Under the pieces are notes generated by a model, which saw only the letters and a program-made list of their open reading frames with translations, ran no database searches and was not told the origin of the DNA. Below, in pieces: positions 2,967 to 30,982 of a stretch of 61,612 bases of DNA. The stretch comes from a virus. The stretch is from positions 1 to 61,612 of the IMG/VR virus record IMGVR_UViG_3300045972_000408. One strand, written 5' to 3'. A program made the position numbers and the translations under genes. Within the stretch, counting starts at the first letter, position 1. Each line of letters begins with the position of its first letter.

Positions 2967-4757
2967 TCACTCCGCTGCGAAAAGGGTTGCGATCGGCTCG
3001 CTCACGGGCTGGCGCTTGCGCGTCGTCGCGCGACACTCGTCCGGGGTGTAGTTCGCGGCGACAAGGGCCTTGGCCATGACGGGGCTGACGCTGTTGCCGC
3101 ACATGCGGACGGAGGCCGTTCCGGTCAGCTTTGTGCCGTCCGGGCGGCGGTCGATGACGTAGGAATCGGGGAAGCCCTGCGCGCGGAAAAGTTCGCGCGG
3201 ACGCAACATTCGCATGCCGATGTCGACGATCTCATAGGGCTCGCCGTGGACCATCACGAGGCCGAAGCGGTCGCGGGTCGGGACGGTATGCATCGGCTCG
3301 GCCGGGCTGACGCCGTCCTTGTCGTTGCCGTAATATTTGACCAGGAAGGCGCGCACCTCGGCGCTATGCGTCCCTTGCGCCGTCACGGTCGGATGCGGCG
3401 TCTCGATATCGCTGGCGCGGCGATCCGAGCCCTTGAGGCTCAAGAGGTGCGCCGAAACGACGCCCTGTTGCGCGCCGGTCGCGGTGACCGTCGAGACCGG
3501 TTCGTCCGCCGGTCGCGAGCCGGGGCATTTGCCGCCATTGTGCTGGGCGAGGAAGGCCGCGACGACGCCATGACGCGGCGCGCCAGCCATGACGGTGTGA
3601 AGGGGTTCGTCCGGCAGGTGGCCGACTGAGTTCTCGCTGAACTTGGTCAGGTGGACGGCGGCGAGGACAGAATCGGCCTTGGCCGTCACTGTCTGCAACG
3701 GCTCGTCCGCCGATCGTGGGCGCGATTGGCCGGCGCGACCGCCGCAACCGGCGATGACAGGAACAATGATCGCGTTCTGATCTTTTTTCGACGCCGTGAC
3801 GGTATGCAGGGGCGCATCGGCGGGGCGCGTCGCGCCGCCCTGCTGAGCATAGGTGACGACCGGGACGACGAGGCCGTGCGCGATCCCGCCGCCCGTAACC
3901 GTGCCGAGCGGCTCTTCCATCGGATACTCGCGGCGGCCGCCGGAAAACCCGTGCGCGACCGAAATAATAAACGGCTCGGCCGCGTCGATGACATAGCGCT
4001 GCACGCCCTTGGCGATGCGGGCCATCGTCGCCTCGGCCAGCGGGCGGTTGACGCCGACGGCGCGGCCTTCCTCTTTGGTCAAAAAGATTGAATGGCAGGG
4101 CAGCGTCCAGTCGATGATTTCTGCCGCGGTGCGCCAAGGCTGGAGCTTGCCGCTCTTGACCTCTTCGGATTTCGGATTGCCGTGCGTCGGCGTCGGCCAG
4201 ACGATGGGGCGGCCGTCGCAGCGGGCGACCAGAAACAGGCGCTTGCGGATGGTGGGCGCGCCATAGTCGCAGGCGCGCAGCTCGCGCCACTCGACCTTGT
4301 AGCCGAGCTTTTTGAACTCGCCGACCCATTTGCGGAAGGTCTCGCCCCGACGCCCAGCTGCGGGCCTATCTGTTTCGTCGAGCGGACACCAGTCCTGAAA
4401 CTCTTCGACGTTTTCGAGCAGGATCACGCGCGGGCGGCGCCGTTGCGCCCATAGTACGACAACCCACGCCAGGTCGCGGATGTTGCGCGACAGCGGCTTG
4501 CCGCCCTTGGCCTTGGAGTGGTGCTTGCAGTCCGGCGAGAACCAGGCGAGGCCGATTTGGCGGCCCGGCATGACCTCGTCGGGATCGATCTGCCAGATGT
4601 TCGAATTCAGGTGCAGGGTATCTGGGTGATTGACCTCGTGCATGGCGATGGCGTCGGCGTCGTGGTTGATCGCGACATCCGGCGAGCGTCCGAGCGCCAT
4701 TTCGATGCCGGTCGAGGCCCCGCCCCCGCCGGCGAAGGAATCGATGATGATTTCCAT
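2967..4757 (-). CDS. C5-cytosine DNA methyltransferase with seven internal repeats
   Basis: 596 residues, long for this family (usually 330-450). Motif I is DSFAGGGGASTGIE (6-19) for AdoMet, the catalytic Cys77 sits in SPDC (the proline-aspartate form of the PC motif), ENV is at 115-117, and the closing motifs are RPRELFRAQGFPD (519-531) and GNSVSPVMAKAL (554-565). The region normally holding the target recognition domain (281-494) contains seven copies of an (A/P)-D-E-P-L-x-T-V-T-A element spaced 32-37 residues. It should methylate phage DNA, most simply against host restriction. Starts one base inside the stop of the upstream gene (TGATG). Confidence 0.93.
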   Translation of the reverse strand: MEIIIDSFAGGGGASTGIEMALGRSPDVAINHDADAIAMHEVNHPDTLHLNSNIWQIDPDEVMPGRQIGLAWFSPDCKHHSKAKGGKPLSRNIRDLAWVVVLWAQRRRPRVILLENVEEFQDWCPLDETDRPAAGRRGETFRKWVGEFKKLGYKVEWRELRACDYGAPTIRKRLFLVARCDGRPIVWPTPTHGNPKSEEVKSGKLQPWRTAAEIIDWTLPCHSIFLTKEEGRAVGVNRPLAEATMARIAKGVQRYVIDAAEPFIISVAHGFSGGRREYPMEEPLGTVTGGGIAHGLVVPVVTYAQQGGATRPADAPLHTVTASKKDQNAIIVPVIAGCGGRAGQSRPRSADEPLQTVTAKADSVLAAVHLTKFSENSVGHLPDEPLHTVMAGAPRHGVVAAFLAQHNGGKCPGSRPADEPVSTVTATGAQQGVVSAHLLSLKGSDRRASDIETPHPTVTAQGTHSAEVRAFLVKYYGNDKDGVSPAEPMHTVPTRDRFGLVMVHGEPYEIVDIGMRMLRPRELFRAQGFPDSYVIDRRPDGTKLTGTASVRMCGNSVSPVMAKALVAANYTPDECRATTRKRQPVSEPIATLFAAE

Positions 4758-6344: not shown

Positions 6345-6979
6345 CAGCGCGGCTCCGAAGCAGAGGATGCTTTGCGAGCGTCGATCTCGGACGCGCATTG
6401 CATCAGGGCCGCGAGTTTGTCGGGGTTGTTGGCGAGCCAGCGGATGGATTCCGCCGCGCCGGCAAGGACATGGTTGACCAGCGTCTGATCGAGCGGGTTG
6501 CTGCGGTAGCCGACGGCATTGAGCCAGTGGCAATGGTGCGTGTTGTGCTGGATTTTCCGCGCGGCGAAAAAGAGGGCGGCGACGGTCGAACTCTGGTTGG
6601 CCGCCTCGGCTTTTCGCGCGCGGTCGAGCAGTCGATTGTTGCTGGCCTGCAGGTCGCTGTTCTGGCGTTCGAGTTCGACAGTGCGGTGCGCGCTGATGTT
6701 GGCGAGATTGGCGGAAGCGGCGATCGTGCTTTTGTCCGCGTCGGACAGGCGAAGGACGGTGCGAAACTTATCGACGTCACGCAATTTGCCGACGACTGCG
6801 GTTTCGCCTCTTCGCCAGGCAACGAATGCGCGCAGCCTTTCGAGTTCCAGCCGAATCGGCCCAAATTCATAAAGCCATTGACGGTCGCTCTCGATCTCAA
6901 CGAGCAGCGCCTTCAGGGCGTCGGCGTCGCCGGCCATTTGCGGCGCCAATTTCCGGGCAAGCCAGGTGCGGATCGTCAT
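6344..6979 (-). CDS. hypothetical protein with central coiled coil
   Basis: 211 residues, started at ATG 6979 because it overlaps the SSB stop as TGATG (a GTG at 6988 is the alternative). Residues about 70-140 are rich in Glu, Arg, Leu and Asn with a heptad-like run ('ELERQNSDLQASNNRLLDRARKAEAA'-type composition), suggesting a coiled coil. A C-terminal part is rich in His, Asn and Trp ('QHNTHHCHWLN'). I recognise no family. It lies in the replication and modification operon between SSB and the PAPS-reductase-like gene, with translational coupling on both sides. Confidence 0.72.
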   Translation of the reverse strand: MTIRTWLARKLAPQMAGDADALKALLVEIESDRQWLYEFGPIRLELERLRAFVAWRRGETAVVGKLRDVDKFRTVLRLSDADKSTIAASANLANISAHRTVELERQNSDLQASNNRLLDRARKAEAANQSSTVAALFFAARKIQHNTHHCHWLNAVGYRSNPLDQTLVNHVLAGAAESIRWLANNPDKLAALMQCASEIDARKASSASEPR

Positions 6980-7479
6980 CAGCGCCACTCCATCGCGAAG
7001 GGGATGTCGTCGTCGAGGCCGCTCGATCCGGAATAGCCGCCGCCGCTGGGCGGGGCCGGGTCGCGCGCGATTGAATAGTCGCGCGTCGAGGTCGAGCCGT
7101 AACCTTCGGGATCGGGCGCGGGCTTTTGCGACGATTCGAGCAGGGTCAGTTCGCCGCGGAAGGCCTTGAGAACGACCTCGGTCGCCTTGCGCTGGTTGCC
7201 GTCTTTATCGGTGTATTCGCGCGTGCACATCGTGCCTTCGAGGTAGCAGCGCGCGCCTTTCTTCAGATATTGCTCGGCGATCTTGCCGAGGCCTTCGTTG
7301 AAGACGACGATGTTGTGCCATTCGGTGCGCTGCTTGCGCTCGCCGGTGGCCTTGTCGCGCCAGCTTTCGTCCGTCGCGAGGCTGAACGTCACCACGCGAC
7401 CGCCGGTCTGGAGCGATCGGCCTTCGGGATCGCGGCCGAGGCGACCGATCAGGATGACTTTATTGACGCTGCCGCTCAT
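6979..7479 (-). CDS. ssb: single-stranded DNA-binding protein
   Basis: 166 residues with the standard OB-fold of bacterial/phage SSB: 'MSGSVNKVILIGRLGRDPE', then 'VTFSLATDESWRDK', 'TEWHNIVVFNEGLGKIAEQYLKKG' and 'YLEGTMCTREYTDKDGNQR'. A flexible Gly/Pro/Ser tail (about 115-150) leads to the acidic tip DDDIPF, which in most SSBs is the very C-terminus and recruits partner proteins; here six more residues (AMEWR and preceding F-A) follow. It coats phage ssDNA in replication and recombination. ATG 7479 overlaps the upstream stop (ATGA). Confidence 0.97.
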   Translation of the reverse strand: MSGSVNKVILIGRLGRDPEGRSLQTGGRVVTFSLATDESWRDKATGERKQRTEWHNIVVFNEGLGKIAEQYLKKGARCYLEGTMCTREYTDKDGNQRKATEVVLKAFRGELTLLESSQKPAPDPEGYGSTSTRDYSIARDPAPPSGGGYSGSSGLDDDIPFAMEWR

Positions 7480-7847
7480 GCCGCGTTCCTTTCGGGCTCG
7501 GGGGCGGCTTCCTTGTCGCGCTTGCGGAGGAGGATGGCGGCGAGGCCCTCTTCGCTTTCGACCACGCCGGACAGGGTCCAGCCGTTGGGAATTTCGGGGT
7601 TCCAGAGATCGATCGCGATGGCGGTTTCGCCGTCCTGATAGGCCAGCGCGCAGGGCGCGTTTTCCGGCTCGACGTCTTCCATGGCGATCCATCGGATGTC
7701 GAAGCCGTTTTCGCCAGCGATGTGGGTCGGGTTGCAGCCCTCGGTCGCGTAGTGGAACATCATCGGGCCAAAAGTCCCGTCGCCACTCACGACGATGGTG
7801 TCGGGCGCCGGGACATGGGTTGCGATCTTTTCGGAGGGGATTTTCAT
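7476..7847 (-). CDS. hypothetical phage protein
   Basis: 123 residues. Begins 'MKIPSEKIATHVPAPDTIVVSGDG' and has alternating strands ('TAIAIDLWNPEIPNGW', 'LAAILLRKRD') with a charged Glu/Lys/Arg tail. No family recognised. It overlaps the start of ssb by 4 nt, so it is co-translated with the replication genes; an accessory role is only inferred from position. Confidence 0.72.
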   Translation of the reverse strand: MKIPSEKIATHVPAPDTIVVSGDGTFGPMMFHYATEGCNPTHIAGENGFDIRWIAMEDVEPENAPCALAYQDGETAIAIDLWNPEIPNGWTLSGVVESEEGLAAILLRKRDKEAAPEPERNAA

Positions 7848-7859
7848 GCTTCGGCTTCC

Positions 7860-8162
7860 TTATGGCTGGAGGGGTTGAGCGCGGTTGGCCGCGCGGGGCA
7901 GCATCGCAGCGCCGAGCGCGGTGAGGCGGATGGTGCTGGCCTGGGCGTGTTTGGCGATGAAGCCTTTTTTCGCCAGCGCCAGCACGTGGGTGCAAACGCA
8001 TCCTCGCGACGAGACTCCGACGTAAAAGCCGATTTCCTCATAGGAGGGGATAGCGCCGGCGGTTTGCAGATCGTCGATGACGGCGAGGATCTTGCCTTCC
8101 ATCGGCGTCAGGGGCGGAGGCAGCGGCCAATCCTTGCCGCAGTTGGGACAGGGCGCGTTCAT
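7860..8162 (-). CDS. zinc-finger/winged-helix DNA-binding protein
   Basis: 100 residues. The N-terminus has a CPNCG half zinc knuckle. Residues about 20-75 read as a winged helix ('MEGKILAVIDDLQTAGAIPSYEEIGFYVG', 'THVLALAKKGFIAKH'), resembling the LexA-type DNA-binding fold. It probably regulates transcription within the phage. Its ATG overlaps the stop of the Gp37/Gp68 gene (ATGA). Confidence 0.72.
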   Translation of the reverse strand: MNAPCPNCGKDWPLPPPLTPMEGKILAVIDDLQTAGAIPSYEEIGFYVGVSSRGCVCTHVLALAKKGFIAKHAQASTIRLTALGAAMLPRAANRAQPLQP

Positions 8163-9673: not shown

Positions 9674-10798
9674 TCAAACCCTCATCGGCATGAGGACGAT
9701 CAGCAGATCGGCGTCGGTGGCGGTGCGGAGGATGGTGGGGCTTTGGCTGTCGTTCAGTTCGATCCGGGCGTTGTCGCCGTCGAGCGCCGACAGGGCGTCG
9801 GCGAGGTAGCGGCTGTTGAAGCCGATCTCGATATGCGCGCCGGAATAGTCGCTCTCGACCTCCTCCGCCGCGCTGCCGACATCCGGATTGGCGACGGAGA
9901 GGGCCAGCGTCGGGCCTTCGAACACCAGCTTGACCGCCTTGCCGCGCTCGCTGGAGACGGTCGAGACGCGCTCGGCCGCGCTGGCGGTTTCTCCGCACGA
10001 GACCAGGGCGATGTTGACGTTCTGGGTCGGGATGACGCGGGTGTAATCGGGGAAGCTGCCATCGATCAGCTTGGAGAGGATGGTGGTTTCGCCCGAGCGG
10101 ACCATGATCTTGGTGTTGCTCAGTTCGATGTCGACGTGCGGCGCGCCGGCCTTGTCGTCTTTGGCGGCGGCCTCGGCGAGGCGCTGGATTTCGACGCAGG
10201 CGAGGCGCGGGACGATCACGCCGAAGCTGGATTCGATGCCGTCAGGCAAGGGCGCCGCTATGCGCGCGAGGCGGTGGCCATCGGTCGCGACCAGGCGCAG
10301 CTCGGTCTCGTCGGCGTGGAAATAAATGCCGTTGAGGTAGTAGCGGGTTTTCTCGGTCGATATGGCGAACGAGGTCTTCTTGATCGCCCGCGCGAGGCCT
10401 TCGGCCGGCAGGGTGAAGCGGTGGGTGATTTCGCCCTTTTCAAGCGTCGGGAAATCGCTGGACGGCAGGGTCGCGAGATGAAACTTGGCGCGGCCGGCGC
10501 GGATGACGAGGCGCGAGGTCACTGCGTCGAATTCGAGCGTGACCGCGTCGGCGGCGAGCTTGCGGACGATCTCGGCGAAGGTCGCGGCCGGGACGGTCAG
10601 GTCGCCGGGTGCGGTGATGTCGGCTTCGAGCGCGGTGTGCGCCTCGAGGTCGAGATCGGTGGCGGCAAGCGTGAGTTTTTCGCCGCTGGCGGTCAGGCGC
10701 AGATTGGCGAGGATCGGGATCGTGGTGCGCTTCTGCGCCACCCGGGAGACGAAATCGAGCGCTTTTCCGAGCGCGGCGCGGGAGAGGGTGAGTTTCAT
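9674..10798 (-). CDS. dnaN: DNA polymerase III beta subunit-like sliding clamp
   Basis: 374 residues, the full length of bacterial DnaN, with all three clamp domains: domain I from 'MKLTLSRAALGKALDFVSRVAQKRTTIPILANL', domain II around 'KTSFAISTEKTRYYLNGIYFH' and 'LVATDGHRLA', domain III around 'LIDGSFPDYTRVIP' and 'IGFNSRYLADAL'. The C-terminal strand 'VLMPMRV' matches the end of the family. A phage-borne clamp would tether polymerase or other clamp-binding proteins; no DNA polymerase is seen in the window, so it probably competes for the host polymerase III. Followed two bases later by an HTH gene and overlapped upstream by ATGA. Confidence 0.97.
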   Translation of the reverse strand: MKLTLSRAALGKALDFVSRVAQKRTTIPILANLRLTASGEKLTLAATDLDLEAHTALEADITAPGDLTVPAATFAEIVRKLAADAVTLEFDAVTSRLVIRAGRAKFHLATLPSSDFPTLEKGEITHRFTLPAEGLARAIKKTSFAISTEKTRYYLNGIYFHADETELRLVATDGHRLARIAAPLPDGIESSFGVIVPRLACVEIQRLAEAAAKDDKAGAPHVDIELSNTKIMVRSGETTILSKLIDGSFPDYTRVIPTQNVNIALVSCGETASAAERVSTVSSERGKAVKLVFEGPTLALSVANPDVGSAAEEVESDYSGAHIEIGFNSRYLADALSALDGDNARIELNDSQSPTILRTATDADLLIVLMPMRV

Positions 10799-15052: not shown

Positions 15053-15898
15053 ATGGATTTCATTGCTTTGGACGTCGAGACCGCCAACGAGAATTTCGGA
15101 AGCATCTGCGCTATCGGCATCGCTGGCTTCAAGGACGGCGAACTCGTCAAATCATTAGAGTATCTGATTGATCCGCAAGACCATTTCTCTCAAATCAATA
15201 TCGACATTCACGGCATCACGCCGGCAATGGTTGCCGGCGCGCCCAATTTTGCCGGCATCCTTCCGCTCCTGACAGAGTCATTCGGCGCCATTCCTATCGC
15301 TTATCACACTCATTTTGACAGAGCGGCTGTCAACCGCGCGGCGGAAGCCGCTGGGTTGCCAGCTCCGCTATTCGCCTGGATTGACACTGCGCGCATCGCG
15401 CGTCGGACGTGGCCGAGATTCTCGCAACGCGGCTATGGCCTTAAAAATCTCGCCAAAGAGTTCGGGTTTAATTTCATCCATCACACCGCGCCCGAAGATG
15501 CTCGATGCGCCGGCCTCATTCTATTGAAGGCAATATCGGATAGCGGCCTCGGGCTCGCGGAATGGCAGGCTCTTGCGTCGCGACCTTTAACGCCGCGCCC
15601 GCGGGTCGCATTGGAGGGAAACCCAGACGGAGATTTGGCGGGAGAGGTCATCTGTTTTACCGGTGCGTTGACGCTCCCGCGAGCAACGGCGGCCGCGCTC
15701 GCCGCTGATTTAGGATGCGATGTCCGCGATAGTGTCACTACGGCGACGACCATTCTTGTCGTCGGCGAGCAAGATTTGCATAAGACTGCCGGCCAGCAAA
15801 AAAGTTCGAAACACCGCAAGGCAGAGGATATGATCGCCAAGGGGCAGGCTATCCGCATCGTCGGCGAGCACGATTTTCTTCAACTTGGCGTCAGCTAA
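15053..15898 (+). CDS. DnaQ-like 3'-5' exonuclease fused to a BRCT domain
   Basis: 281 residues. The N-terminal domain (1-175) is a DEDD exonuclease of the polymerase III epsilon type: 'FIALDVETAN' (Asp7, Glu9), 'HGITPAMV', 'IPIAYHTHFDRAAVNRA', and a downstream 'HHTAPEDARCAGLI' with His and Asp. The C-terminal part (about 195-280) is a BRCT domain like that of NAD-dependent ligase: 'GEVICFTGALTLPRATAAALAADLGCDVRDSVTTATTILVVGE' and a final 'KHRKAEDMIAKGQAIRIVGEHDFLQL'. Likely acts in DNA repair or proofreading. It lies alone on the plus strand inside the immunity region, divergent from the leftward operon and convergent with the repressor, so it may be expressed in the lysogen. No clear Shine-Dalgarno is visible. 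Confidence 0.92.
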   Translation: MDFIALDVETANENFGSICAIGIAGFKDGELVKSLEYLIDPQDHFSQINIDIHGITPAMVAGAPNFAGILPLLTESFGAIPIAYHTHFDRAAVNRAAEAAGLPAPLFAWIDTARIARRTWPRFSQRGYGLKNLAKEFGFNFIHHTAPEDARCAGLILLKAISDSGLGLAEWQALASRPLTPRPRVALEGNPDGDLAGEVICFTGALTLPRATAAALAADLGCDVRDSVTTATTILVVGEQDLHKTAGQQKSSKHRKAEDMIAKGQAIRIVGEHDFLQLGVS

Positions 15899-18635: not shown

Positions 18636-18760
18636 TTTTCGTGCGCTGGATTTACCTCAAGGGCGGTCGCCGCGTGGCGGTGTGGTCGCATCGCCGGCGC
18701 CGGCCGGAGGCGGACCGGATCTGGCGGGCCATTGTCGATGAAGTGCGGAGGGCGGCGTGA
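18632..18760 (+). CDS. 42-residue hypothetical protein (GTG start)
   Basis: Starts at GTG 18632 overlapping the previous stop (GTGA), with GAGGGAG just upstream, and ends in a second GTGA shared with the ParB-like gene. It encodes a strand-turn-strand 'FVRWIYLKGGRRVAVWSHRRR' and a final helix 'EADRIWRAIVDEVRRAA'. Overlaps at both ends favour a real gene. Confidence 0.55.
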   Translation: MIFVRWIYLKGGRRVAVWSHRRRRPEADRIWRAIVDEVRRAA

Positions 18761-19578: not shown

Positions 19579-19934
19579 GCGACGAATTCTCCGTTTTCAT
19601 TCCGCCGGCGCCGGCGTGGCTTTACGACATGGCGCTCGAAAAGCTCGGCGCGCTCCTGGCCGGCATTCCGGCGCATCAGCGCGAAAGCGCGGCGCGGCAA
19701 CTGGTGGAGGCGGTGGCGATGATCGCGGTCGCCGAGGCGCCGGGCAAGGCTGAGGCGTTCTGGCGCGCCGCCGCCGCCGACGTGCGGCTACGCCCGCATG
19801 AGGATCGCACCCCCCCGCCCGCGTCCGTTCCGCAGCCCGATCCGTCGATGGGATACCTGGCGTTCTTGTACGCAGTGCTGGGCGGCGCCGTGATTGGCGC
19901 GGCGGCGATGGTCTTTTTCCGGGGGGCGGTCTGA
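19575..19934 (+). CDS. hypothetical protein with C-terminal membrane helix
   Basis: 119 residues, ATG 19575 overlapping the ParB-like stop (ATGA). Helical N-terminus ('APAWLYDMALEKLGALLAGIPAHQRESAARQLVEAVAMI'), a Pro-rich linker, then one transmembrane helix at the end ('MGYLAFLYAVLGGAVIGAAAMVFF'). A tail-anchored cytoplasmic domain is the inferred topology. Function unknown. Confidence 0.68.
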   Translation: MSDEFSVFIPPAPAWLYDMALEKLGALLAGIPAHQRESAARQLVEAVAMIAVAEAPGKAEAFWRAAAADVRLRPHEDRTPPPASVPQPDPSMGYLAFLYAVLGGAVIGAAAMVFFRGAV

Positions 19935-21118
19935 TGCGGCTGTCCGAGGCGCAAATCGAGGATCTCAAGTCGCGGGTCGATCTCGTCAAGCTGGCGACGT
20001 CGATGGGCGCCGAGTTGCGGCGGCATGGCCGGACCACGATGGGGACTTGCCCGCTGTGCGGCGGGTCGAAGAAGACCACGCGGTTCGAAATCAAGGATCA
20101 GAGCTGGATGTGCGCGGCCTGTTCCGAGGGCGGCGATGCGCTGGCTTTAGTGCAGAAGGTCAAGGGTCTGGATTTTCGCGCGGCGGTCGAGTTTCTCGGC
20201 GGCGCGCAAAAGATCGATCCCGAGGAAGAGGCGCGGCTGGAGCGCGAGCGGGAAGAGCGCAAGCGCCAGCAGGCCGAAGTCGCGGCGAAGATGCGCGCGA
20301 GCGCCATCGCGGGCGCGTGGCGGCTGTGGGAACAGTCCGAACAGTTTTCGCGTAGCGAGGTTGAGGCTTATTTGCGCGCGCGCGGGTGTTTGCTGCCGGC
20401 CTCGGCGGAAATTCGCGGCGCGCGGGCCGTCCCCTATTTTCATGGCGAGACGGTCGACGAGATGGGGCGAAAGTCGCCGCGCGTGTTGCGCCGGGGACCG
20501 GCCATGGTTTCCGCCGTGCGCGACAATGCCGGCGCATTCGTCGCCGTCCATCTGACCCATCTGAACGCCGAATGCTCGGGCAAGGCGAAGATCGAAAACC
20601 TGGATTTCAAGCCGGAAACCGATGACGAAAAGCTCCGTTTTCTTCCGGCCAAAAAGCAGCGCGGCGCGAAAAAGGGCGGGCATATCGTGTTGCGCTCGCC
20701 GACTGTCCCGACCCGCCTGTTCATGGGCGAGGGGATCGAGACGGTGCTTTCGGTCGCCACCGCCTTTTTGCGGGCGAAAAAGCTGCTGCCGAGCGACGCC
20801 TTCTGGTCTTCCTGCGACCTCGGCAATCTCGGCGGCGATTGTGTCGAGAGCGTGAAGCATCCGACGCTGAAATTGCGCAATGGAGCCGCGCAAAAGGTGC
20901 CGGGGCCGGTTCCCGACTTGTCCGCGCCGGGCATCGCGATTCCGTCCAGCGTGACGCGGCTGGTGCTGCTGGCGGATGGCGACAGCGACCCTTTCACGAC
21001 CGAGATGGCGATGCAGCGGGCGCAGGCGCGGTTTGCGCGCGACGGGCTGGAGATCGTGGTGGTTTGGCCGCCGCGCGACATGGATTTCAACGATGTGTTG
21101 ATGGAAGGGGCCGCGTGA
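19934..21118 (+). CDS. DNA primase, CHC2-type zinc finger plus Toprim
   Basis: 394 residues. N-terminal zinc-binding site 'TCPLCGG...WMCAACSEGGDAL' (two Cys-x2-Cys pairs) is the CHC2/DnaG type, preceded by 'IEDLKSRVDLVKLATSMG'. A charged linker (about 95-125) leads to a Toprim domain with 'MGEGIETVLSVA' (acidic residue) and 'LLADGDSDP' (DxD), and ends 'PRDMDFNDVLM'. It should lay primers for phage DNA replication with the helicase at 24626. First base overlaps the preceding stop. Confidence 0.93.
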   Translation: MRLSEAQIEDLKSRVDLVKLATSMGAELRRHGRTTMGTCPLCGGSKKTTRFEIKDQSWMCAACSEGGDALALVQKVKGLDFRAAVEFLGGAQKIDPEEEARLEREREERKRQQAEVAAKMRASAIAGAWRLWEQSEQFSRSEVEAYLRARGCLLPASAEIRGARAVPYFHGETVDEMGRKSPRVLRRGPAMVSAVRDNAGAFVAVHLTHLNAECSGKAKIENLDFKPETDDEKLRFLPAKKQRGAKKGGHIVLRSPTVPTRLFMGEGIETVLSVATAFLRAKKLLPSDAFWSSCDLGNLGGDCVESVKHPTLKLRNGAAQKVPGPVPDLSAPGIAIPSSVTRLVLLADGDSDPFTTEMAMQRAQARFARDGLEIVVVWPPRDMDFNDVLMEGAA

Positions 21119-21752: not shown

Positions 21753-22039
21753 ACGAGATCGTATTGAACGAGCGCGAACAGAAGTTCTACGCTGATCTGT
21801 TTGACGATCTTTGCGAAGTCGTCGCGCGCGCCGCTGGCAGAGCGGATCGCGAGGGTTTGCCGGTCCCGGATTTTTGCGGATCGATCTGCGCTGCCTTCAC
21901 CCAGTTGAGCTTTGAGGTGTTGGTCGAGGCGATGACCCCGGACCAGTCGCGCGCCGCCATCGTCAAGGCGGCCGACCACATGTTCGCCACCGCCGCTCTC
22001 GGCGAGACGAGGGGACCGCATGAACGCGCTGTCCTATGA
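21749..22039 (+). CDS. hypothetical phage protein
   Basis: 96 residues. Opens 'MNEIVLNEREQKFYADLFDDLCEVVARAAG' and has 'FCGSICAAFTQLSFEVLVEAMTPDQSRAAIVKAADHMF'. Helical, Cys-containing, no family recognised. Its last 20 nt overlap the helicase-methyltransferase gene. Confidence 0.68.
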   Translation: MNEIVLNEREQKFYADLFDDLCEVVARAAGRADREGLPVPDFCGSICAAFTQLSFEVLVEAMTPDQSRAAIVKAADHMFATAALGETRGPHERAVL

Positions 22040-24629
22040 CGAGTTCCTGCGCGCCAAGGTGCCGATTGCCCGGCCGGGGGATGTTTCGGTCGCGGCGATC
22101 GAGACGCATTTTTCCGCAAAACCGCATCAGGCCGCTTGCGCGCGGTGGATGATCGCGGGCGGGCGCCGGGCGCTGTTCGCCTCGTTCGGGCTCGGCAAGA
22201 CGCGCATCCAGCTCGACGTCATCCGCTGCCTGATCGCGATGCATGGCGGGCGGGGGCTGATCGTCATTCCGCTCGGGGTTCGTCAGGAATTTGTGCGCGA
22301 TGCGCTGGCCATGGGCGTCGAAGTCACATTCGTGCGGCGGATCGAGGAGTGCGGCGAGAGCGGCATTTATTTGACCAATTACGAGACCATCCGCGACGGC
22401 AAGATGGACCCGGCCGATTTCACCGCCGCGAGCCTGGACGAGGCGAGCGTGTTGCGCGGGTTTGGCGGCACCAAGACCTTTCGCGAGTTCATGCGGGCGT
22501 TCGAGCCGGTGCGCTTTCGCTTTGTGGCGACCGCGACGCCTTCGCCCAACGATTATATCGAGTTGCTGGCCTATGCCGCGTTCCTCGGGATCATGGATGT
22601 CGGGCAGGCCAAGACGCGGTTCTTCAAGCGCGATTCGACCAATGCCGACAAGCTGACCCTGCATCCGCACAAGGCGGAAGAGTTCTGGCTTTGGGTCTCG
22701 TCCTGGGCGCTGTTCGTGCAGCGGCCGAGCGATCTGGGTTTTGACGACGCCGGCTATTCCTTGCCTCCGATGGAGGTGCATTATCATTCGGTCCAGACCG
22801 ATCTGATCGGCAAGGACGCCGATCGCGGCGGGCAGATGATGCTGATCCGCGATCATGCCGTCGGCGTGCAGAACGCCGCGCGCGAAAAGCGCGAGACGCT
22901 GCCGGCGCGCATCGAGGCGATGAAGGCCATTCTCGCCGCCGATCCGGACAGCCATTTTCTGATCTGGCACGATCTGGAGGCCGAGCGTCACGCGATTGAA
23001 AAGGCGCTGCCGGGCGTCGTGTCGGTGTTCGGGTCGCAGGATCTTGAGGTTCGCGAACAGCGCATCGTCGATTTCTCGGATGGCAAGTTCAAATATCTGG
23101 CGGCGAAGCCGGTCATCGCCGGTTCGGGCTGCAATTTCCAGCGCCATTGCCACAAGGCGATTTTTCTCGGCATCGGCTTCAAGTTCAACGATTTCATTCA
23201 GGCGATCCATCGCATCCAGCGGTTTTTGCAGAGCGAGACCGTCGAGATTCACATCATCCACGCCGAGAGCGAAGAGGCCATTTTGCGCACGTTGCTGCGC
23301 AAGTGGGAACAGCACAAGATCATGGTGGCCAAGATGTCGCAAATCATTCGGGATTATGGGCTTTCTCACGCAAGCATGGCCGCCGCGCTCGAGCGTTCGA
23401 TGGGCTGCAACCGGATCGAGGTCGCGGGCGATAAATATAAGCTGGTCAATGCCGATTGCGTAGAAGAGACGCGGCGCCTGCCGTCCGACAGCGTTGGGTT
23501 GATCGTGACGTCCATTCCGTTCTCGACGCAGTATGAATATTCGCCGAGCTATAATGACTTCGGCCACACCGACGATGATGCGCATTTCTGGGCGCAGATG
23601 GATTATCTGATCCCGGAATTGTTTCGGGTGATGATGCCCGGGCGCGATGCGGCGATCCATGTCAAGGACCGGATCATTCCCGGCGGCGTGTCGGGCCTCG
23701 GTTTCCAAACGCTTTCGACCTTTTCCTATGACTGCATTTCCGCTTTCAGGCGGGCTGGTTTTGCCTTTCTGGGCGAAAAAACCATCACGACCGATGTGGT
23801 GCGCGAGAATAACCAGACCTATCGCCTCGGCTGGACCGAGCAATGCAAGGATGGCTCGCGCATGGGTTTTGGCGTGCCGGAAAAGCTGTTGCTGTTTCGC
23901 AAGCCGCCGTCGAGCCGGGATAATGGCTATGCCGATGTTCCCGTGGTCAAGGACAAGAAATGGCGCATGGACGCGGTTGGCGAGACGCGCGACGGCGGCG
24001 GCGAGATCGTCCAGGCGGCGACGCCGGGCTATTGGCGCAACGAGGGCGGTTATTCGCGGGCCCGGTGGCAATTGGATGCGCATGCCTATACGCGCTCAAG
24101 CGGCGACCGGCTGATCGACGCCGACGAGCTGCTGGGCTTTTCGGCCTCGGACGTGTTCAAGGTCTGGAAAAAGTTCTCTTTGGAGACGGTCTATAATTTC
24201 GAGCATCATGTGCGGATCGGCGAGGCGTTCGAAGAGCGGGGCCAGCTTCCCGCCGATTTCATGCTGATGCCGCCGCATTCGCGCCATCCCGACGTGTGGA
24301 CCGATATTACCCGCATGTTGAGCGTCAACACGCTGCAATCTGCCAAGGGGCGGGAAATGCACCTGTGCCCGCTCCAGTTCGACATTGTCGATCGCGCGAT
24401 CAACCAGTGGTCCAACCCTGGCGATGTGGTGTTCGACCCGTTCGGCGGCATGATGACCGTGCCGATGCGGGCGGTGAAATTCGGGCGCGTCGGCTGGGGC
24501 TGCGAGTTGAACCATCGCTATTTTCTCGACGGGGTCAAATATGTCGAGGCCGAGGCGCGGGCGCTGGACGCGCCGACGCTGTTCGACGCGCTTGAGGCGG
24601 AACAGGCGAGCAAGGTGGCTGCGGAATGA
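22020..24629 (+). CDS. SF2 helicase fused to a DNA N-methyltransferase
   Basis: 869 residues with two modules. Residues 30-450 are a SWI2/SNF2-like SF2 ATPase: Walker A 'FGLGKT' (56-61), 'GLIVIPLGVRQEF', motif II 'LDEAS' (about 139-143), 'FVATATPSPNDYIELL' (motif III), 'VIAGSGCNFQRHC' and motif VI-like 'AIHRIQRF'. Residues about 470-840 are a beta-class amino-methyltransferase: catalytic 'VTSIPFSTQYEYSPSYNDFGH' (an S-I-P-F variant of the S/D-P-P-Y/F motif) and AdoMet motif 'VFDPFGGMMTVP'. It should methylate A-N6 or C-N4 in phage DNA; the ATPase may translocate. It is a second methyltransferase beside the one at 2967-4757. Confidence 0.92.
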   Translation: MNALSYDEFLRAKVPIARPGDVSVAAIETHFSAKPHQAACARWMIAGGRRALFASFGLGKTRIQLDVIRCLIAMHGGRGLIVIPLGVRQEFVRDALAMGVEVTFVRRIEECGESGIYLTNYETIRDGKMDPADFTAASLDEASVLRGFGGTKTFREFMRAFEPVRFRFVATATPSPNDYIELLAYAAFLGIMDVGQAKTRFFKRDSTNADKLTLHPHKAEEFWLWVSSWALFVQRPSDLGFDDAGYSLPPMEVHYHSVQTDLIGKDADRGGQMMLIRDHAVGVQNAAREKRETLPARIEAMKAILAADPDSHFLIWHDLEAERHAIEKALPGVVSVFGSQDLEVREQRIVDFSDGKFKYLAAKPVIAGSGCNFQRHCHKAIFLGIGFKFNDFIQAIHRIQRFLQSETVEIHIIHAESEEAILRTLLRKWEQHKIMVAKMSQIIRDYGLSHASMAAALERSMGCNRIEVAGDKYKLVNADCVEETRRLPSDSVGLIVTSIPFSTQYEYSPSYNDFGHTDDDAHFWAQMDYLIPELFRVMMPGRDAAIHVKDRIIPGGVSGLGFQTLSTFSYDCISAFRRAGFAFLGEKTITTDVVRENNQTYRLGWTEQCKDGSRMGFGVPEKLLLFRKPPSSRDNGYADVPVVKDKKWRMDAVGETRDGGGEIVQAATPGYWRNEGGYSRARWQLDAHAYTRSSGDRLIDADELLGFSASDVFKVWKKFSLETVYNFEHHVRIGEAFEERGQLPADFMLMPPHSRHPDVWTDITRMLSVNTLQSAKGREMHLCPLQFDIVDRAINQWSNPGDVVFDPFGGMMTVPMRAVKFGRVGWGCELNHRYFLDGVKYVEAEARALDAPTLFDALEAEQASKVAAE

Positions 24630-26380
24630 GTTCGGGTTCCGATCCATATCAGCGCATTGTCGCGATGGTGGAAGCGGCGTCTCCCGCGACCCCCGTGGAG
24701 GCTCTTGCCGGGGACCAACCGTCGCAGGAGGCGGGCGCCGATGCTTGCGCCGATCTGGGGCCTTCCGATGCGGAGGTTTCGGGCGGCGATCCGAAGATTA
24801 TCGCGGCCTGCGCCGGGCTGGATCATTCCGACACCGACAATGGGACTCGGCTAATAAAGCATTTCGGGCGCGATCTGATCGTGATGGCGCAGGGCGGCGT
24901 CGCCGGCGGCGACTGGCTCGCCTGGGACGGGCGGCATTGGGATTTGGACAATGGTCCGGCCTCGGCCGCGCTGCTGGCGCAAAAAGTTGGCGGGCGGATC
25001 GCGCTGGAGGCGGCGTTTCTCGATTTCACGCCCGCCGAGCGCGAGGCGGTCAAGGCGGAAGAGGCGTTTTCGGCGGATGACAAGAGCGCGCCGGCGGTGG
25101 CGGCTCGCGCCGCGGCCGAGGGCGCGCGGAAGACTTTGCAGGCGCGAAAAACGTCGCGCTGGCGGTTTGGCGTGTCGTCGAAAAATTCGGCGCGGATCAA
25201 GAACATGCTGGAGACGGCGGCACCGCATTTGCGCCGGGATGTGTCGCTGTTCAACACCGATCCATTGTTGGTGGTGACGCAGACGCATACGCTGATTTTT
25301 TCGCGCGAAATCGATCTGGAATGTCCCGATCCCGATGTGACGCGCTATGCCGGGCGCGTCGAGGCGCTGGCGGTGTTTCGGCGCGAGGATCTGGCGACCG
25401 GGCTGGTTCCGTGCGGTTACGATCCGCAGGCGGTTTCGGCCAAGTGGACGGCGTTTCTCGACCGATGCATGCCGGACCTCGAATTGCGGCGCACGGTGCA
25501 GCAATATTCGGGCATGGGCTTGCTGGGCGTTCTGGCGCAAAAGCTGATGTTTCATCATGGTTTTGGCGCGAACGGCAAATCGGTTTTTCTCGCGGTTCTG
25601 ACGCGGGTTTTGGGCAAATCCTATGCGGTGGGCCTGCCGGCGGAAAGCATCACCGGCGGGGCCGAGCGCGGGGCTGGCCAGGCGTCGCCCGATATCGTGC
25701 GGCTGCTCGGCAAACGCATGCTGCGCGTCGACGAGCTGCCGGAGGGGCAGAAGCTACATGAAGACCTGGTGAAGCGTTTGACGGGCGGCGACGAAGTCAC
25801 CGTGCGCAACCTGTTCAAGGGTTATTTCGATTTTCGCAATGTCGCGACGCCGCATATGAGCGGAAACGGCTTTCCGAAAATCGAGGGGACCGACAATGGA
25901 ATCTGGCGGCGCATGCTGGTGGTGCATTGGTCTGTGACCATTCCGCCGGAAGAGCGGCGCGAGTTCGATGAGTTCGTCGACGATCTGCTGACCGAGGCTT
26001 CGGGCATTTTGAACTGGCTGATCGACGGGGCGCTGGATTTTCTGGCGCACGGGTTGGTGGTCGCGCCGGCCATCGCCAATGCGACCGAGGCCTATCGCGA
26101 GGACATGGACCCGATCGGGCGGTTTGTCGCGGCCTGCGTCGAGGTCGCGCCGGGGCACAGCGAGGCGGCTGCGGCGCTTTATGACGCCTATCTGGCCTGG
26201 TGCCCGGGGAACAACGTCACGCCCTGCCAGCAGACGCGATTCGGGCGGGAAATGGCCAAGCGGTTCGTCAAGGCCAAGAAGCAGACCGTGAGCTATCTCG
26301 ACATTCGCCTGCATGACGTGCCGCCGCGGCCGGATGATGGGCGAAGCGGGTCGTCCTGGCCTGAGGGGTATGGGGGATGA
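24626..26380 (+). CDS. P4/D5-family replicative helicase (phage/plasmid primase C-terminal type)
   Basis: 584 residues. The central part is the D5_N/P4 type: 'QQYSGMGLLGVLAQKLMFHHGFGANGKSVFL' with Walker A GANGKS, Walker B 'KRMLRVDELPE', then 'LVKRLTGGDEVTVRNLFKGYFDF' and 'HMSGNGFPKIEGTDNGIWRRMLVVHW' with the sensor arginines of superfamily 3 helicases. The N-terminal 110 residues are Ala/Asp-rich and less conserved. It should unwind the phage origin together with the separately encoded CHC2/Toprim primase. Overlaps the previous stop by 4 nt. Confidence 0.95.
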   Translation: MSSGSDPYQRIVAMVEAASPATPVEALAGDQPSQEAGADACADLGPSDAEVSGGDPKIIAACAGLDHSDTDNGTRLIKHFGRDLIVMAQGGVAGGDWLAWDGRHWDLDNGPASAALLAQKVGGRIALEAAFLDFTPAEREAVKAEEAFSADDKSAPAVAARAAAEGARKTLQARKTSRWRFGVSSKNSARIKNMLETAAPHLRRDVSLFNTDPLLVVTQTHTLIFSREIDLECPDPDVTRYAGRVEALAVFRREDLATGLVPCGYDPQAVSAKWTAFLDRCMPDLELRRTVQQYSGMGLLGVLAQKLMFHHGFGANGKSVFLAVLTRVLGKSYAVGLPAESITGGAERGAGQASPDIVRLLGKRMLRVDELPEGQKLHEDLVKRLTGGDEVTVRNLFKGYFDFRNVATPHMSGNGFPKIEGTDNGIWRRMLVVHWSVTIPPEERREFDEFVDDLLTEASGILNWLIDGALDFLAHGLVVAPAIANATEAYREDMDPIGRFVAACVEVAPGHSEAAAALYDAYLAWCPGNNVTPCQQTRFGREMAKRFVKAKKQTVSYLDIRLHDVPPRPDDGRSGSSWPEGYGG

Positions 26381-26383
26381 GCG

Positions 26384-26770
26384 ATGACTGTTTTTGTTGA
26401 CGACGTTCGCCACGCTTTCGGTCGCATGGTGATGTGTCACATGTGGGCCGATAATCTCGAAGAATTGCTAGCGATGGCCGATAAGATCGGCGTTCAGCGC
26501 AAGTGGATTCAAGGCCATCCGACGCTTTCATTCGGCAAGCATCGTGAAGCGTCGTGGGTGCATTTCGACGTGAGCCTGGGCGCAAAAGCAAGAGCCATCG
26601 ATGCTGGCGCAGTCCTGACAGACCGCTTTGGTCCGGTTGAACATGCCGCCAAGCAAGATATCGCATCCGGCGACCCCGTTCTCATCCAAATCGGAGAGCG
26701 CCGCCTCGCGATGGTTGCCAAAGCCCGCGCTTATCGGTCTGACCGCCCGCAACCCGTTTTGGCGCGCTGA
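26384..26770 (+). CDS. DUF4031 domain protein
   Basis: 128 residues starting 'MTVFVDDVRHAFGRMVMCHMWADNLEELLAMADKIGVQRKWIQG', which is the DUF4031 pattern ('VYVDDxRxPxGRMxMCHMxAD'), followed by 'HFDVSLGAKARAIDAGAVLTD'. Family function is unknown. The last 30 residues (after LTDRFGPVEH) extend beyond the usual domain. It closes the rightward early operon just before the iteron block. Confidence 0.85.
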   Translation: MTVFVDDVRHAFGRMVMCHMWADNLEELLAMADKIGVQRKWIQGHPTLSFGKHREASWVHFDVSLGAKARAIDAGAVLTDRFGPVEHAAKQDIASGDPVLIQIGERRLAMVAKARAYRSDRPQPVLAR

Positions 26771-26775
26771 TTTTG

Positions 26776-27049
26776 CCCGAACCGTCTCGTTTTTTAGACA
26801 GTTGAGACGGTTCGGGACAGTTGCCGAAAAACTGTCTAGGCGAGAACCGGCTTTGCGATCATGGGCTTGCTTGGCGAGTTAGACAGTTAGACAGTTTTTC
26901 GCGCGTATATGTAAGCAAATGGGGTTCGGGGTTTTTGCGATCTTTTACATACATATAGGCGTCAAAAACTGTCTAACTGTCTACAATGCCTCATAAGTGT
27001 TTGTTTTTTAATCGGCTTATGCCTTAGACGGTTTACAATGAACTGTCTA
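26776..27049. repeat. iteron cluster and nested inverted repeats; candidate replication origin
   Basis: No gene fits in 26771-27088. The block is AT-rich against a GC-rich background and holds seven exact copies of TAGACAGTT or its complement: plus at 26795, 26880 and 26888; minus at 26830, 26967, 26975 and 27041, with near-matches at 26780, 26804, 26814 and 27025. Pairs in tandem at 26880-26896 and 26967-26983 face each other as a large inverted repeat that also includes TATATGTAA (26906) against TTACATACATATA (26945). CCCGAACCGTCTC (26776-26788) and its complement (26804-26816) form a 13-bp perfect stem. Location just after helicase and primase genes supports an origin; an operator array is the alternative. 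Confidence 0.7.
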
Positions 27050-27088
27050 TAACCTTCTAAACCCTCTCACCTTGGCAAGAGGCTGGAA

Positions 27089-28048
27089 ATGAGCGGCGAA
27101 AATGTGCGGCGGCAGGCGGTGATCAATATGGCTCTGGCCTGGACCGGATCGATGCGGGTTGTGGCTGCGCCGCCGGCGCGGCGACGCATCGCCATCGAGG
27201 ATTTGCTCGCATGGGCCTATCTGAAGGAACTCCCCAAGACGCCGCGCATCAATGCGCCAGACGGGTTCAAGGGCGCGTGGGACAAGGTGGCGGAATGGGC
27301 GGCTGAATTGTCGCTTGCCGGTCTGGCGGATAATCGGTTTGGGGTTGTGCCCGATCTGCTATCGCAGGCTCTGCCGCACGCCGATGCGCTGATCGTGCAC
27401 GAGGCGGTGTGCGCGCTCGACGAACTGGAGGTCGATGGTCTGGCGGAGTTCTCGCCGTTCGATACGCGCGACGATGTCGATCCGGCGCTGATCGCGCGCT
27501 ATGAGGGCGCTGTGCGCTCGCGGGTTGTGACGATCGGCAAGGATGGGCGCGCGCGGTTGCGCAAGCCGCTGCGCAATCTGGTGTTCAACGCGGCGATTTT
27601 AGGCCGCGCGCCGGAATGGCGGATAGATGCTTTTGGCCAGGACGTCGAGCGCTGGCCGAACGGGATGGTCAAATATTTCCGCAAATCGGGACAATGGGAA
27701 ACGAGCTTGAGCGGCGATATCTGGGTCGAGTTCGAGACGGCGGTATCGGCGGACCCGGACACCAAGCGACTGCCGGAAGGGGCGGAGCCTCACCCTGTCC
27801 TCGAACCCGACCCGACCGATGACGCGGTGTCGCGCATCCATCATGAGTTGTGGCGGCTGGCGCTCGATGTTCTGGCGGCGGACTTGCACGGTCGGCTGGA
27901 AAAGTGGGATGTGCAGCCTTGCGCTTTGCCGTTGCGGCCATGGATCGAGGGTGAACCGCCGCGTGGTCGCGTGTTGCGAGACCTGTCGCGCCCCGTGGCG
28001 GCGATTGAGGTGCGCGGCCGGCGAAAAAAGAGTGCAGGTAAAGCTTGA
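27089..28048 (+). CDS. hypothetical phage protein
   Basis: 319 residues. N-terminus 'VRRQAVINMALAWTGSMRVV', then a basic stretch 'PARRRIAIEDLLAWAYLKELPK', two helical regions, 'LRNLVFNAAILGRAPEW' and a C-terminal acidic/basic part ending KKSAGKA. I recall similar proteins between replication genes and HNH/terminase in alphaproteobacterial phages. Not assigned to an enzyme. It directly follows the iteron block, so an origin-binding role is a possibility to test, but no clear DNA-binding motif is seen. Confidence 0.72.
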   Translation: MSGENVRRQAVINMALAWTGSMRVVAAPPARRRIAIEDLLAWAYLKELPKTPRINAPDGFKGAWDKVAEWAAELSLAGLADNRFGVVPDLLSQALPHADALIVHEAVCALDELEVDGLAEFSPFDTRDDVDPALIARYEGAVRSRVVTIGKDGRARLRKPLRNLVFNAAILGRAPEWRIDAFGQDVERWPNGMVKYFRKSGQWETSLSGDIWVEFETAVSADPDTKRLPEGAEPHPVLEPDPTDDAVSRIHHELWRLALDVLAADLHGRLEKWDVQPCALPLRPWIEGEPPRGRVLRDLSRPVAAIEVRGRRKKSAGKA

Positions 28049-28451: not shown

Positions 28452-28588
28452 TGGTCGAGAGGGGGTGGGGGTTTAAATCCTCACCAATTTCCGTCTCTGC
28501 AACCGCACCCATCCTCATGCGCGCAAAAAATTTTGGCTGGCTAGAGGTTTGATTAGGCGGCTTTGAAAAGCGGAAATCAAACATCGCC
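28452..28588 (+). other. non-coding gap before terminase; candidate cos/packaging site
   Basis: 137 nt without a gene. A G-rich tract GAGGGGGTGGGGG is followed by TTTAAATCC (28459-28480), a pattern I have seen between HNH and small-terminase genes of other phages, where cos is often located. The rest is AT-richer with no further structure. Confidence 0.35.
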
Positions 28589-29206
28589 ATGACCGAGCCC
28601 GAAAACAAATCGCGGCGTGGCGGCAAACGCCCCGGCGCCGGGCGCAAGCCGAAAGGCTACGTCAAGCCCTCCGCCCTGTCCGATCTCAACCGCGCGGCGG
28701 CCATCGACACCGCGCCGCCCGACGAGATCGACGGCCTGGCGCAAGGCCATGCCCGCGACGTCATGTCCGCGCTGGTCAAGGTGCTGACCCACGGACGGAG
28801 CGAAGCGGCCAAGATTTCGGCGGCCAAGGAAATTCTCGACCGCGGCTACGGCAAGCCGACGGTGGATATCGGCGGCGACGCGGCCATGCTGCCCTTCATG
28901 ATGGCCCCGCAACCTTCCGCCGCGCCCTCGGTCCATTCGGAAATCCGCACCGAGGCGCGCAAATACGCCACGCTCGCCATCGAGGTGCTGCGCAAGATCG
29001 CCATTGACGGCGCATCCGAAAGCGCCATCGCATCGGCCGCCAAAGCCTTGCTCGATCGCGGCCTGGGCACGGTCGGCAAGGCCCGCATGCCGGAAGAGCA
29101 GCGCGACCGTCCGCTCGGCAAGAAGGAAGAACTGGCCAAGGCGGCGGAGATCGCGGCCAGCGGCCCCTTCGCTACGCCGACGCCGCCCCGACAAAGGTTT
29201 TCGTAA
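28589..29206 (+). CDS. terS: terminase small subunit
   Basis: 205 residues. The basic N-terminus 'RRGGKRPGAGRKPKGY' is the hallmark of this group. Two similar helical units follow: 'ARDVMSALVKVLTHGRSEAAKISAAKEILDRGYGKPTVDIG' (about 56-96) and 'ARKYATLAIEVLRKIAIDGASESAIASAAKALLDRGLGTVGKA' (about 120-165), an internal duplication. It recognises the packaging site and recruits the large subunit, encoded immediately after. Confidence 0.88.
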   Translation: MTEPENKSRRGGKRPGAGRKPKGYVKPSALSDLNRAAAIDTAPPDEIDGLAQGHARDVMSALVKVLTHGRSEAAKISAAKEILDRGYGKPTVDIGGDAAMLPFMMAPQPSAAPSVHSEIRTEARKYATLAIEVLRKIAIDGASESAIASAAKALLDRGLGTVGKARMPEEQRDRPLGKKEELAKAAEIAASGPFATPTPPRQRFS

Positions 29207-30982
29207 ATGCCGCCAGTCTGGACCACGGCGATCCCGGACTGGCGCGAACGCCTGATCGAGCGCCGCCCGATCATCCCCTTCGCCCCGCTCTTTCCGCAAG
29301 AGGCGGACGCGGCGAGCGAAATCTTCAACGATCTTCCGGTCGTGGACGTCGCCGGCAAGCCGCGCTTCGGCGACATCGGCCGCCCCTGGGTGTTCGACTT
29401 CGTCCGCGCCGTCTTCGGCTCCTATGACGCCGAGGCCGGGCGCCGCCTGATCCAGTATTATTTCCTGCTGATCGCCAAGAAAAACGGCAAGTCCACGCTC
29501 GCCGCCGACATCATGGTGACGGCGCTGATCCGCAATTGGCGCGAGTCGGGCGAATTCTACATCCTCGCCCCGACCAAGGAAGTCGCCGACAACAGCTACA
29601 CGCCGGCCGCCGACACGGTGCGCGAGCATCCCGTCCTGCGCAGCATTTTAAAACCCTGCGCCGGGCGCGTGATCGAACACCGCAACACTGGCGCGACGCT
29701 CAAAGTGGTCGCGGCGGACAGCGAAACGGTCGGCGGCAAAAAGACCATCGGCCTGCTGGTCGACGAGCTGTGGCTGTTCGGCAAACGCGCCAATGCTGCG
29801 AACATGCTGCTCGAGGCCGAAGGCGGCCTGGCGTCGCGCCCCGAAGGTTTTTCGATCTACCTGTCCACCCATTCGGACGGCCCGCCGCAAGGCGTCTTCA
29901 AGGATAAGCTCGAAGAATTCCGCGCCATCCGCGACGGAAAGATCGACGATCCGAAAAAGCTTCCGGTCCTCTACGAATTCCCGGAGCCGCTGCTGAAGGA
30001 CGACGCCTTCGGCGAGCGCAAGCACTGGTATATCACCAACCCCAACCTGGGCGCCTCGGTCGATCCGGAATACATCGCCGGCAAGATCGCCGAGGCCCAG
30101 CGCGCCGGCAAAGCCCAGCTCGCGGGCGTCTACGCCAAGCATCTGAACGTCCAGATCGGCAACGGCCTGCGCGCCGATGGCTGGGCTGGCGCCGAGCTCT
30201 GGCCGCGCCGCGCCGAAAAGCTGACGCTCGAAGACATTCTCGACCGCTGCGAACTGGTGACGGTCGGCCTCGATGGCGGCGGCCTCGACGATCTGCTCGG
30301 CCTCGCCGTCATCGGCCGCGAGCGCGGAACCAAGCGCTGGCTCGCCTGGGGCAAGGGCCTCATCTCGACCATCGGCGTCGGGCGGCGCAAAGGCAACGCC
30401 GTCGATTATCTTGAGTTCAAGAAGGCCGGCGAACTCACGGTTTTCCGCTTCGACCTCGACATCGCCGACCTGTCCGCCGGCGATGACGATCTGCGCGAGC
30501 TGATCGACGACGCCCTGCCCCCGCAAAAAACGCCGGAAGGCTGGACGCCGGACGTCGCCGAGATCGTCGGCGTCATCAAGAATATTCACGAGCGCGGCCT
30601 GCTGGCGAAAGTCGGCGTGGACGCCATGGGCATCGGCACCATAGTCGATGCGCTCGCCAGCGTCGGCATCACGCAGGACGAAGAGCTGCTGTTCGGCGTC
30701 CGCCAGGGCATCGGCCTCATGGGCGCCTTCAAGACCGTCGAGCGCAAGCTCGCCGACGGCTCTTTCGCCCACGGTGGCGGCCCGCTGCTGTCATGGAGCG
30801 TCGGCAATCTGAAGCTGATCCAGACGCCCACGGCGGTCCGCGTCGCGCGCGAGGAAAGCGGCTTTGGGAAAGTCGACGTGGCCATGGCTTTGTTCAACGC
30901 CGCCGCACTGATGACCGCCAACCCAGAACTGCCGGACGCCTCAGTCTATACCGCCGATCGCGGGCTGGTCGTGTTCGGCTGA
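29207..30982 (+). CDS. terL: terminase large subunit
   Basis: 591 residues, HK97/Terminase_1 type. ATPase: Walker A 'AKKNGKST' (90-97) and Walker B 'IGLLVDELWLF' (181-191, Asp186-Glu187). Nuclease: 'VTVGLDGGGLDDL', 'VGVDAMGIG' and 'FGKVDVAMALFNAAALM' supply the acidic residues. It cuts concatemers and pumps DNA into the prohead. Starts one base after the small subunit's stop. Confidence 0.97.
   Translation: MPPVWTTAIPDWRERLIERRPIIPFAPLFPQEADAASEIFNDLPVVDVAGKPRFGDIGRPWVFDFVRAVFGSYDAEAGRRLIQYYFLLIAKKNGKSTLAADIMVTALIRNWRESGEFYILAPTKEVADNSYTPAADTVREHPVLRSILKPCAGRVIEHRNTGATLKVVAADSETVGGKKTIGLLVDELWLFGKRANAANMLLEAEGGLASRPEGFSIYLSTHSDGPPQGVFKDKLEEFRAIRDGKIDDPKKLPVLYEFPEPLLKDDAFGERKHWYITNPNLGASVDPEYIAGKIAEAQRAGKAQLAGVYAKHLNVQIGNGLRADGWAGAELWPRRAEKLTLEDILDRCELVTVGLDGGGLDDLLGLAVIGRERGTKRWLAWGKGLISTIGVGRRKGNAVDYLEFKKAGELTVFRFDLDIADLSAGDDDLRELIDDALPPQKTPEGWTPDVAEIVGVIKNIHERGLLAKVGVDAMGIGTIVDALASVGITQDEELLFGVRQGIGLMGAFKTVERKLADGSFAHGGGPLLSWSVGNLKLIQTPTAVRVAREESGFGKVDVAMALFNAAALMTANPELPDASVYTADRGLVVFG

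Follow-up and report, generated by a model that had tools for sequence, protein, structure and literature searches.

The window analysed here is the whole 61,612-bp stretch of the IMG/VR virus record IMGVR_UViG_3300045972_000408. It encodes an integrase, an SSB, a beta clamp, an epsilon-like exonuclease, a ParB-like protein, a DnaG-type primase, a helicase-methyltransferase fusion and a D5-like helicase, after which come a DUF4031 gene, an array of short repeats, a phrog_9306 protein, TerS (at 28589), TerL (at 29207), and portal, head and tail genes. Judged by this gene content, the source of the record is a temperate tailed phage. The structural set comprises portal, major head, head-tail adaptor, tail and tape measure genes as well as both terminase genes, and the element was therefore classed as a phage rather than as a PICI satellite. 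When named phages were searched for DNA similarity, all of the matches listed fell on the terminase gene. The beta clamp is a full three-domain DNA polymerase III clamp (9674-10798, -), with the SSB (6979-8001) and the epsilon-like exonuclease (15053-15898) encoded near it. A C5 cytosine methyltransferase (2967-4757, -) matched PF00145 in two separate stretches, which suggests an insertion in the gene. In the product of 22020-24629 (+), a helicase is joined to an N6/N4 DNA methyltransferase domain (phrog_16, PF01555), and various related loci carry relatives of this protein close to the D5 helicase. The features of the locus are as follows.

19934..21118, + strand: DnaG-type primase (zinc ribbon and Toprim), probable primase of the module
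24626..26380, + strand: D5/P4-family (TIGR01613) AAA+ primase-helicase, 584 aa, predicted initiator; matches TIGR01613, phrog_1156, D5_N and Pox_D5
26384..26770, + strand: small DUF4031 protein, encoded between the helicase gene and the array (PF13223, 64.8 bits)
26780..27059, no strand: iteron array, predicted replication origin, 12 sites in a near-dyad
26780..26838, no strand: left outer cluster, GAGACGGTT (-), TAGACAGTT (+), GAGACGGTT (+), GGGACAGTT (+), TAGACAGTT (-)
26880..26896, + strand: left inner tandem pair, 8-bp period
26897..26966, no strand: centre, candidate melting site, 58.6% AT, with CGCGTATATGTA...GGGGTTCGGGG...TACATACATATA
26967..26983, - strand: right inner tandem pair, facing the left pair, 8-bp period
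27025..27059, no strand: right outer cluster, TAGACGGTT (+), TAGACAGTT (-), TAGAAGGTT (-)
27089..28048, + strand: phrog_9306 protein, next gene after the array (AlphaFold2 pLDDT 82.8)

The array is built on the 9-mer TAGACAGTT, for which the seven exact copies counted in the initial annotation were all recovered, spanning 26795-27049, at 26795(+), 26830(-), 26880(+), 26888(+), 26967(-), 26975(-) and 27041(-). No exact copy was found elsewhere in the 61,612-bp record. Near copies were located at 26780(-) and 26804(+) (GAGACGGTT), 26814(+) (GGGACAGTT), 27025(+) (TAGACGGTT) and 27051(-) (TAGAAGGTT), and with up to two mismatches the total came to 12 sites between 26780 and 27059, slightly above the 11 first reported. 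With one mismatch allowed, 11 matches were present in the record against 1.9 expected; with up to two, the 12 sites of the block compare with 0.32 per 325 bp expected or observed elsewhere. Markov-3 sequences of 61.6 kb were simulated 30 times; the best 9-mer of each had only 3-4 copies in 300 bp and never more than 4, a result that upholds the earlier claim of a density beyond chance. The block is non-coding and AT-rich, as had been described (55.8% AT versus 37.5% for the window).

Sites are ordered -+++-++ and then --+--, giving a near-dyad around the AT-richer centre, in which the tandem pair at 26880/26888 (+) faces that at 26967/26975 (-), as noted previously; a weaker third reverse site lies at about 27060, beside the right outer cluster. 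The 13-bp stem reported at 26776-26816 exists, but its arms are inverted GAGACGGTT variants around an exact iteron; it is therefore part of the array and was rejected as an independent hairpin. The block had also been placed directly after the helicase gene. The helicase does lie upstream, but the DUF4031 gene intervenes.

The helicase scored 190.8 bits against TIGR01613 (cut-off 108.7), the phage/plasmid P4-type primase C-terminal family, and matched phrog_1156 (E 3e-121), D5_N and Pox_D5. Its AlphaFold2 model is confident (pLDDT 88.3) and predicts a C-terminal winged helix at residues 505-562, after the AAA+ core, consisting of a strand (505-514), two helices (515-528 and 536-546) and a second strand (556-562). 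By E-value, the top Foldseek match was the primase-polymerase of African swine fever virus. Upon realignment, the SaPI5 Rep primase-helicase came out on top (7ola, Z 29.0; 7om0, Z 28.9, with residues 53-571 covered), tied within 1 with the African swine fever virus protein 9ivf (Z 28.2), and the poxvirus D5/E5 helicases came next.

Origins of PICI/SaPI elements lie immediately 3' of the initiator gene and carry two iteron sets flanking an AT-rich region, and the initiator helicase has a C-terminal origin-binding domain (PMC6092414, PMC7581432). The window resembles them in the position of the array, which starts 400 bp past the stop of an initiator-type helicase gene with DUF4031 in between, in its convergent iteron arms around an AT-richer centre (58.6% versus 37.5% for the window), and in having SaPI5 Rep as the best structural match of its helicase. 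It differs in that the array belongs to a full temperate phage, which has terminase, capsid and tail genes of its own, and in that a DnaG-type primase is encoded separately. The C-terminal domain of the SCCmec helicase Cch2, also of the TIGR01613 family, binds to repeats that lie immediately downstream of the Cch2 gene, and the same is described for SaPI Rep (PMC7581432). Cch2 shares with the window a D5/Primase_Cterm helicase with repeats downstream of the gene, but has only three AAGTG repeats, and replication in vivo was not demonstrated for it.

A further parallel was found in Streptococcus thermophilus phage Sfi21, whose record annotates, directly after a TIGR01613 gene, an 'origin of replication, 302 bp non-coding region, phage inhibitory sequence'. 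Within this annotated origin, TTAGTTACT arrays face each other across an AT-rich centre. The window array likewise lies downstream of a TIGR01613 helicase, with facing tandem repeats and an AT-richer centre, whereas Sfi21 uses a different word (TTAGTTACT), has a Firmicutes host and shows no annotated DnaG-type primase in the stretch examined. By analogy with SaPI/PICI elements, SCCmec Cch2 and Sfi21, the window block is probably an origin of an already known kind.

For comparison with relatives, helicase loci were taken from the matches listed among viral contigs and GTDB genomes, leaving 176 loci including the window after removal of duplicates; those named by organism were mainly from Alphaproteobacteria, among the matches listed. 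Whole loci were scanned de novo for repeats, and the array threshold was set at a score of 7, equal to the maximum of the Markov controls (7.0). Among the matches listed, 144 of the 175 relatives had the strongest array of their locus 0-600 bp past the stop of the helicase gene, 11 had it 600-2500 bp past that stop and 1 elsewhere; in 19 no array scored above 7. Coding DNA just upstream in the same loci scored 4.6 or less. Where the array is displaced, genes can separate it from the helicase, as in Rhizobium phage RR1-A. Of the named phages tested, AmM-1, Pan4, Mae-JY02, Milly, Keshu and the archaeal virus Blf4 have an array after the homologous gene; Pthi1 scored 5.9, below the threshold of 7. 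Annotated small genes overlie the arrays of Mycobacterium phage Milly (5440-5904 of locus L241) and Methanoculleus virus Blf4 (5328-5657 of L240) and may be spurious. In locus L180 a second, stronger array (AATGGTCG, score 21.8) lies elsewhere, some 3 kb before the stop of the helicase gene.

Layout was examined in 108 representatives at 85% identity, which were selected for having an array, so that the fractions describe arrays and not how frequent arrays are. Convergent arms were found in 99 of the 108, the inner left pair had a period of 9 bp in 74, and the median arm-to-arm distance was 86 bp. Motifs like those of the window centre (CGCGTATATGTA, GGGGTTCGGGG, TACATACATATA) were found again in the centres of relatives' arrays.

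In locus L011 a helicase of another family (phrog_21086/35358), with no TIGR01613 or Pfam match, is followed by a TTAGACAG array and then by a TerS-like gene; arrays similar to it occur also in L010, L012, L016 and L018. A second family of initiators may therefore use a nearly identical word.

While the layout is kept among the relatives, the word varies (TTGCGAGGGTT, GATAGTT, TGGAGGGT, GGGAGGAT and others) and falls into 23 classes. The repeat had been considered specific to this element, a claim that was rejected: tandem TAGACAGTTAGACAGTT is present in 11 other viral contigs. Among the matches listed, the window's nearest relatives by helicase core, L095 (69% identity) and L019 (64%), use another word, GCGAGGGTT. 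Between the window and L020, helicase identity is 80-86% over residues 421-510, 40% at 511-540 and 63% at 541-570, and the drop at 511-540 thus falls in the winged helix.

In partial Mantel tests that held the remainder of the helicase constant, winged-helix distance (residues 505-562) correlated with iteron distance (r 0.31; 0 of 500 permutations), and helicase residues 130-240 also correlated with the repeat word (r 0.24), whereas the AAA+ parts gave r -0.17 and -0.11. Because these permutations ignore phylogeny, two further tests were run, using parsimony on trees and independent pairs. The tree of the winged helix (58 columns) required 36 changes of iteron class, the possible minimum being 22; other 58-column blocks required 39 (477-534, which half overlaps it) or 42-47 (the rest), random core columns 41-45 and the core tree 42. 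The 53 independent pairs pointed weakly in the same direction, with p of about 0.03 for the recognition helix and, for the whole winged helix, 0.05 in one test and 0.22 in another. On this comparative evidence, the repeat word and the helicase winged helix change together. A similar co-change is described in geminiviruses, in which iterons change fast and residues of the iteron-related domain of Rep co-vary with them (PMC12548392), although their initiator is unrelated and acts by rolling-circle replication in ssDNA plant viruses.

Among the proteins proposed at the outset as binders of the repeat, the helicase at 24626 is favoured, since its winged helix tracks the word. DnaG does not do so (r -0.10, versus 0.25 for the winged helix in the same loci). 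The 27089 protein is only weakly associated (r 0.14, versus 0.43 for the winged helix in the same loci); by tblastn it was not found beside many relatives that retain the array, its fold had no PDB match at E<=0.001, and it was set aside as the binder. A code of one residue (ET with GCGAGGGTT, QQT with GACAGTT) was suggestive but is broken by L124, which combines a QQT recognition helix like that of the window with a GCGAGGGTT repeat.

The block is very probably the replication origin of the phage, at which the helicase would load itself as two facing hexamers. Such an origin had been proposed in the initial annotation, and the reading is supported by arrays 3' of the same helicase family in relatives, by the Sfi21 annotation and by the PICI/SaPI layout. 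We infer that the D5/P4-family helicase, encoded upstream, uses its C-terminal winged helix to bind the iterons and assembles as a double hexamer, one ring per arm. The two hexamers would melt the AT-richer centre, load themselves and each unwind outwards, so that the origin would fire in both directions, with priming probably carried out by the phage's DnaG-type primase. Points that weigh against this reading are the polarity of the GC skew described below, the correlation of helicase residues 130-240 with the word, the weak signal in the 53 independent pairs, locus L124 and the 19 relatives in which no array exceeded the threshold.

An alternative, which we regard as unlikely, is that the array is not a replication start but a transcriptional operator, bound by the helicase, the 27089 protein or another regulator. 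In favour of this, the array stops some 30 bp short of the 27089 gene, at an early/late boundary; however, no sigma-70-like promoter was found in 26300-27200 (in this host group such a test is weak), the array is retained in many relatives in which no 27089 homologue was found, and its Sfi21 counterpart is annotated as an origin. Origin function and autoregulation are not mutually exclusive.

Less probable still is a role in packaging, with the small terminase binding the array as a cosB- or pac-like site. TerS and TerL do follow the array, and cumulative GC skew reaches its maximum at 28,471, 1.4 kb from the array, at the early/late border by TerS. Against this, the array goes with the helicase and not with the terminase: those of mycobacteriophages Milly and Keshu lie after a primase-helicase gene, with no terminase annotated in the stretch, and in Sfi21 the annotated cos is 6 kb away from the annotated origin. 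The skew turn, which had been suggested as a check on the origin, is not counted as support for it, because a textbook bidirectional origin has a polarity opposite to that of a maximum. Near TerS, GC and AT skew both switch sign at about 28471 though the flanking genes share direction. A parS-like partition site is the most improbable reading: the ParB-like protein at 18757, itself an early candidate binder, is encoded 7 kb upstream, but among the first 70-odd loci (flanks limited to 6 kb) a ParB-like relative was found beside only two, L012 and L018, in neither of which a D5-like helicase relative was found.

With a predicted replication origin as the preferred reading, a concrete origin and initiator can be proposed for this phage, and searching for facing iterons 3' of a TIGR01613 helicase would serve as a simple rule by which likely origins can be located in many phages and prophages that lack annotation. 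The published view of this layout as confined to PICIs is questioned by the present arrays and by Sfi21. A limited literature search found no account of how widely the frame occurs in whole phages, or of the word being swapped time and again along with the winged helix. Tentatively, phages with a D5 helicase may possess one conserved origin frame in which the word is repeatedly swapped together with the winged helix, making the origins of close relatives foreign to each other; PICI origins might then be one branch of the phage frame, the driver may be origin titration or superinfection interference among phages, prophages and satellites, and the helicase-iteron pairs could constitute a natural recognition code. 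With this set of pairs two questions can be put to the test, namely by what means a winged helix selects its repeat and what makes phage origins switch specificity so often; if such a code holds, origin specificity would become predictable from it.
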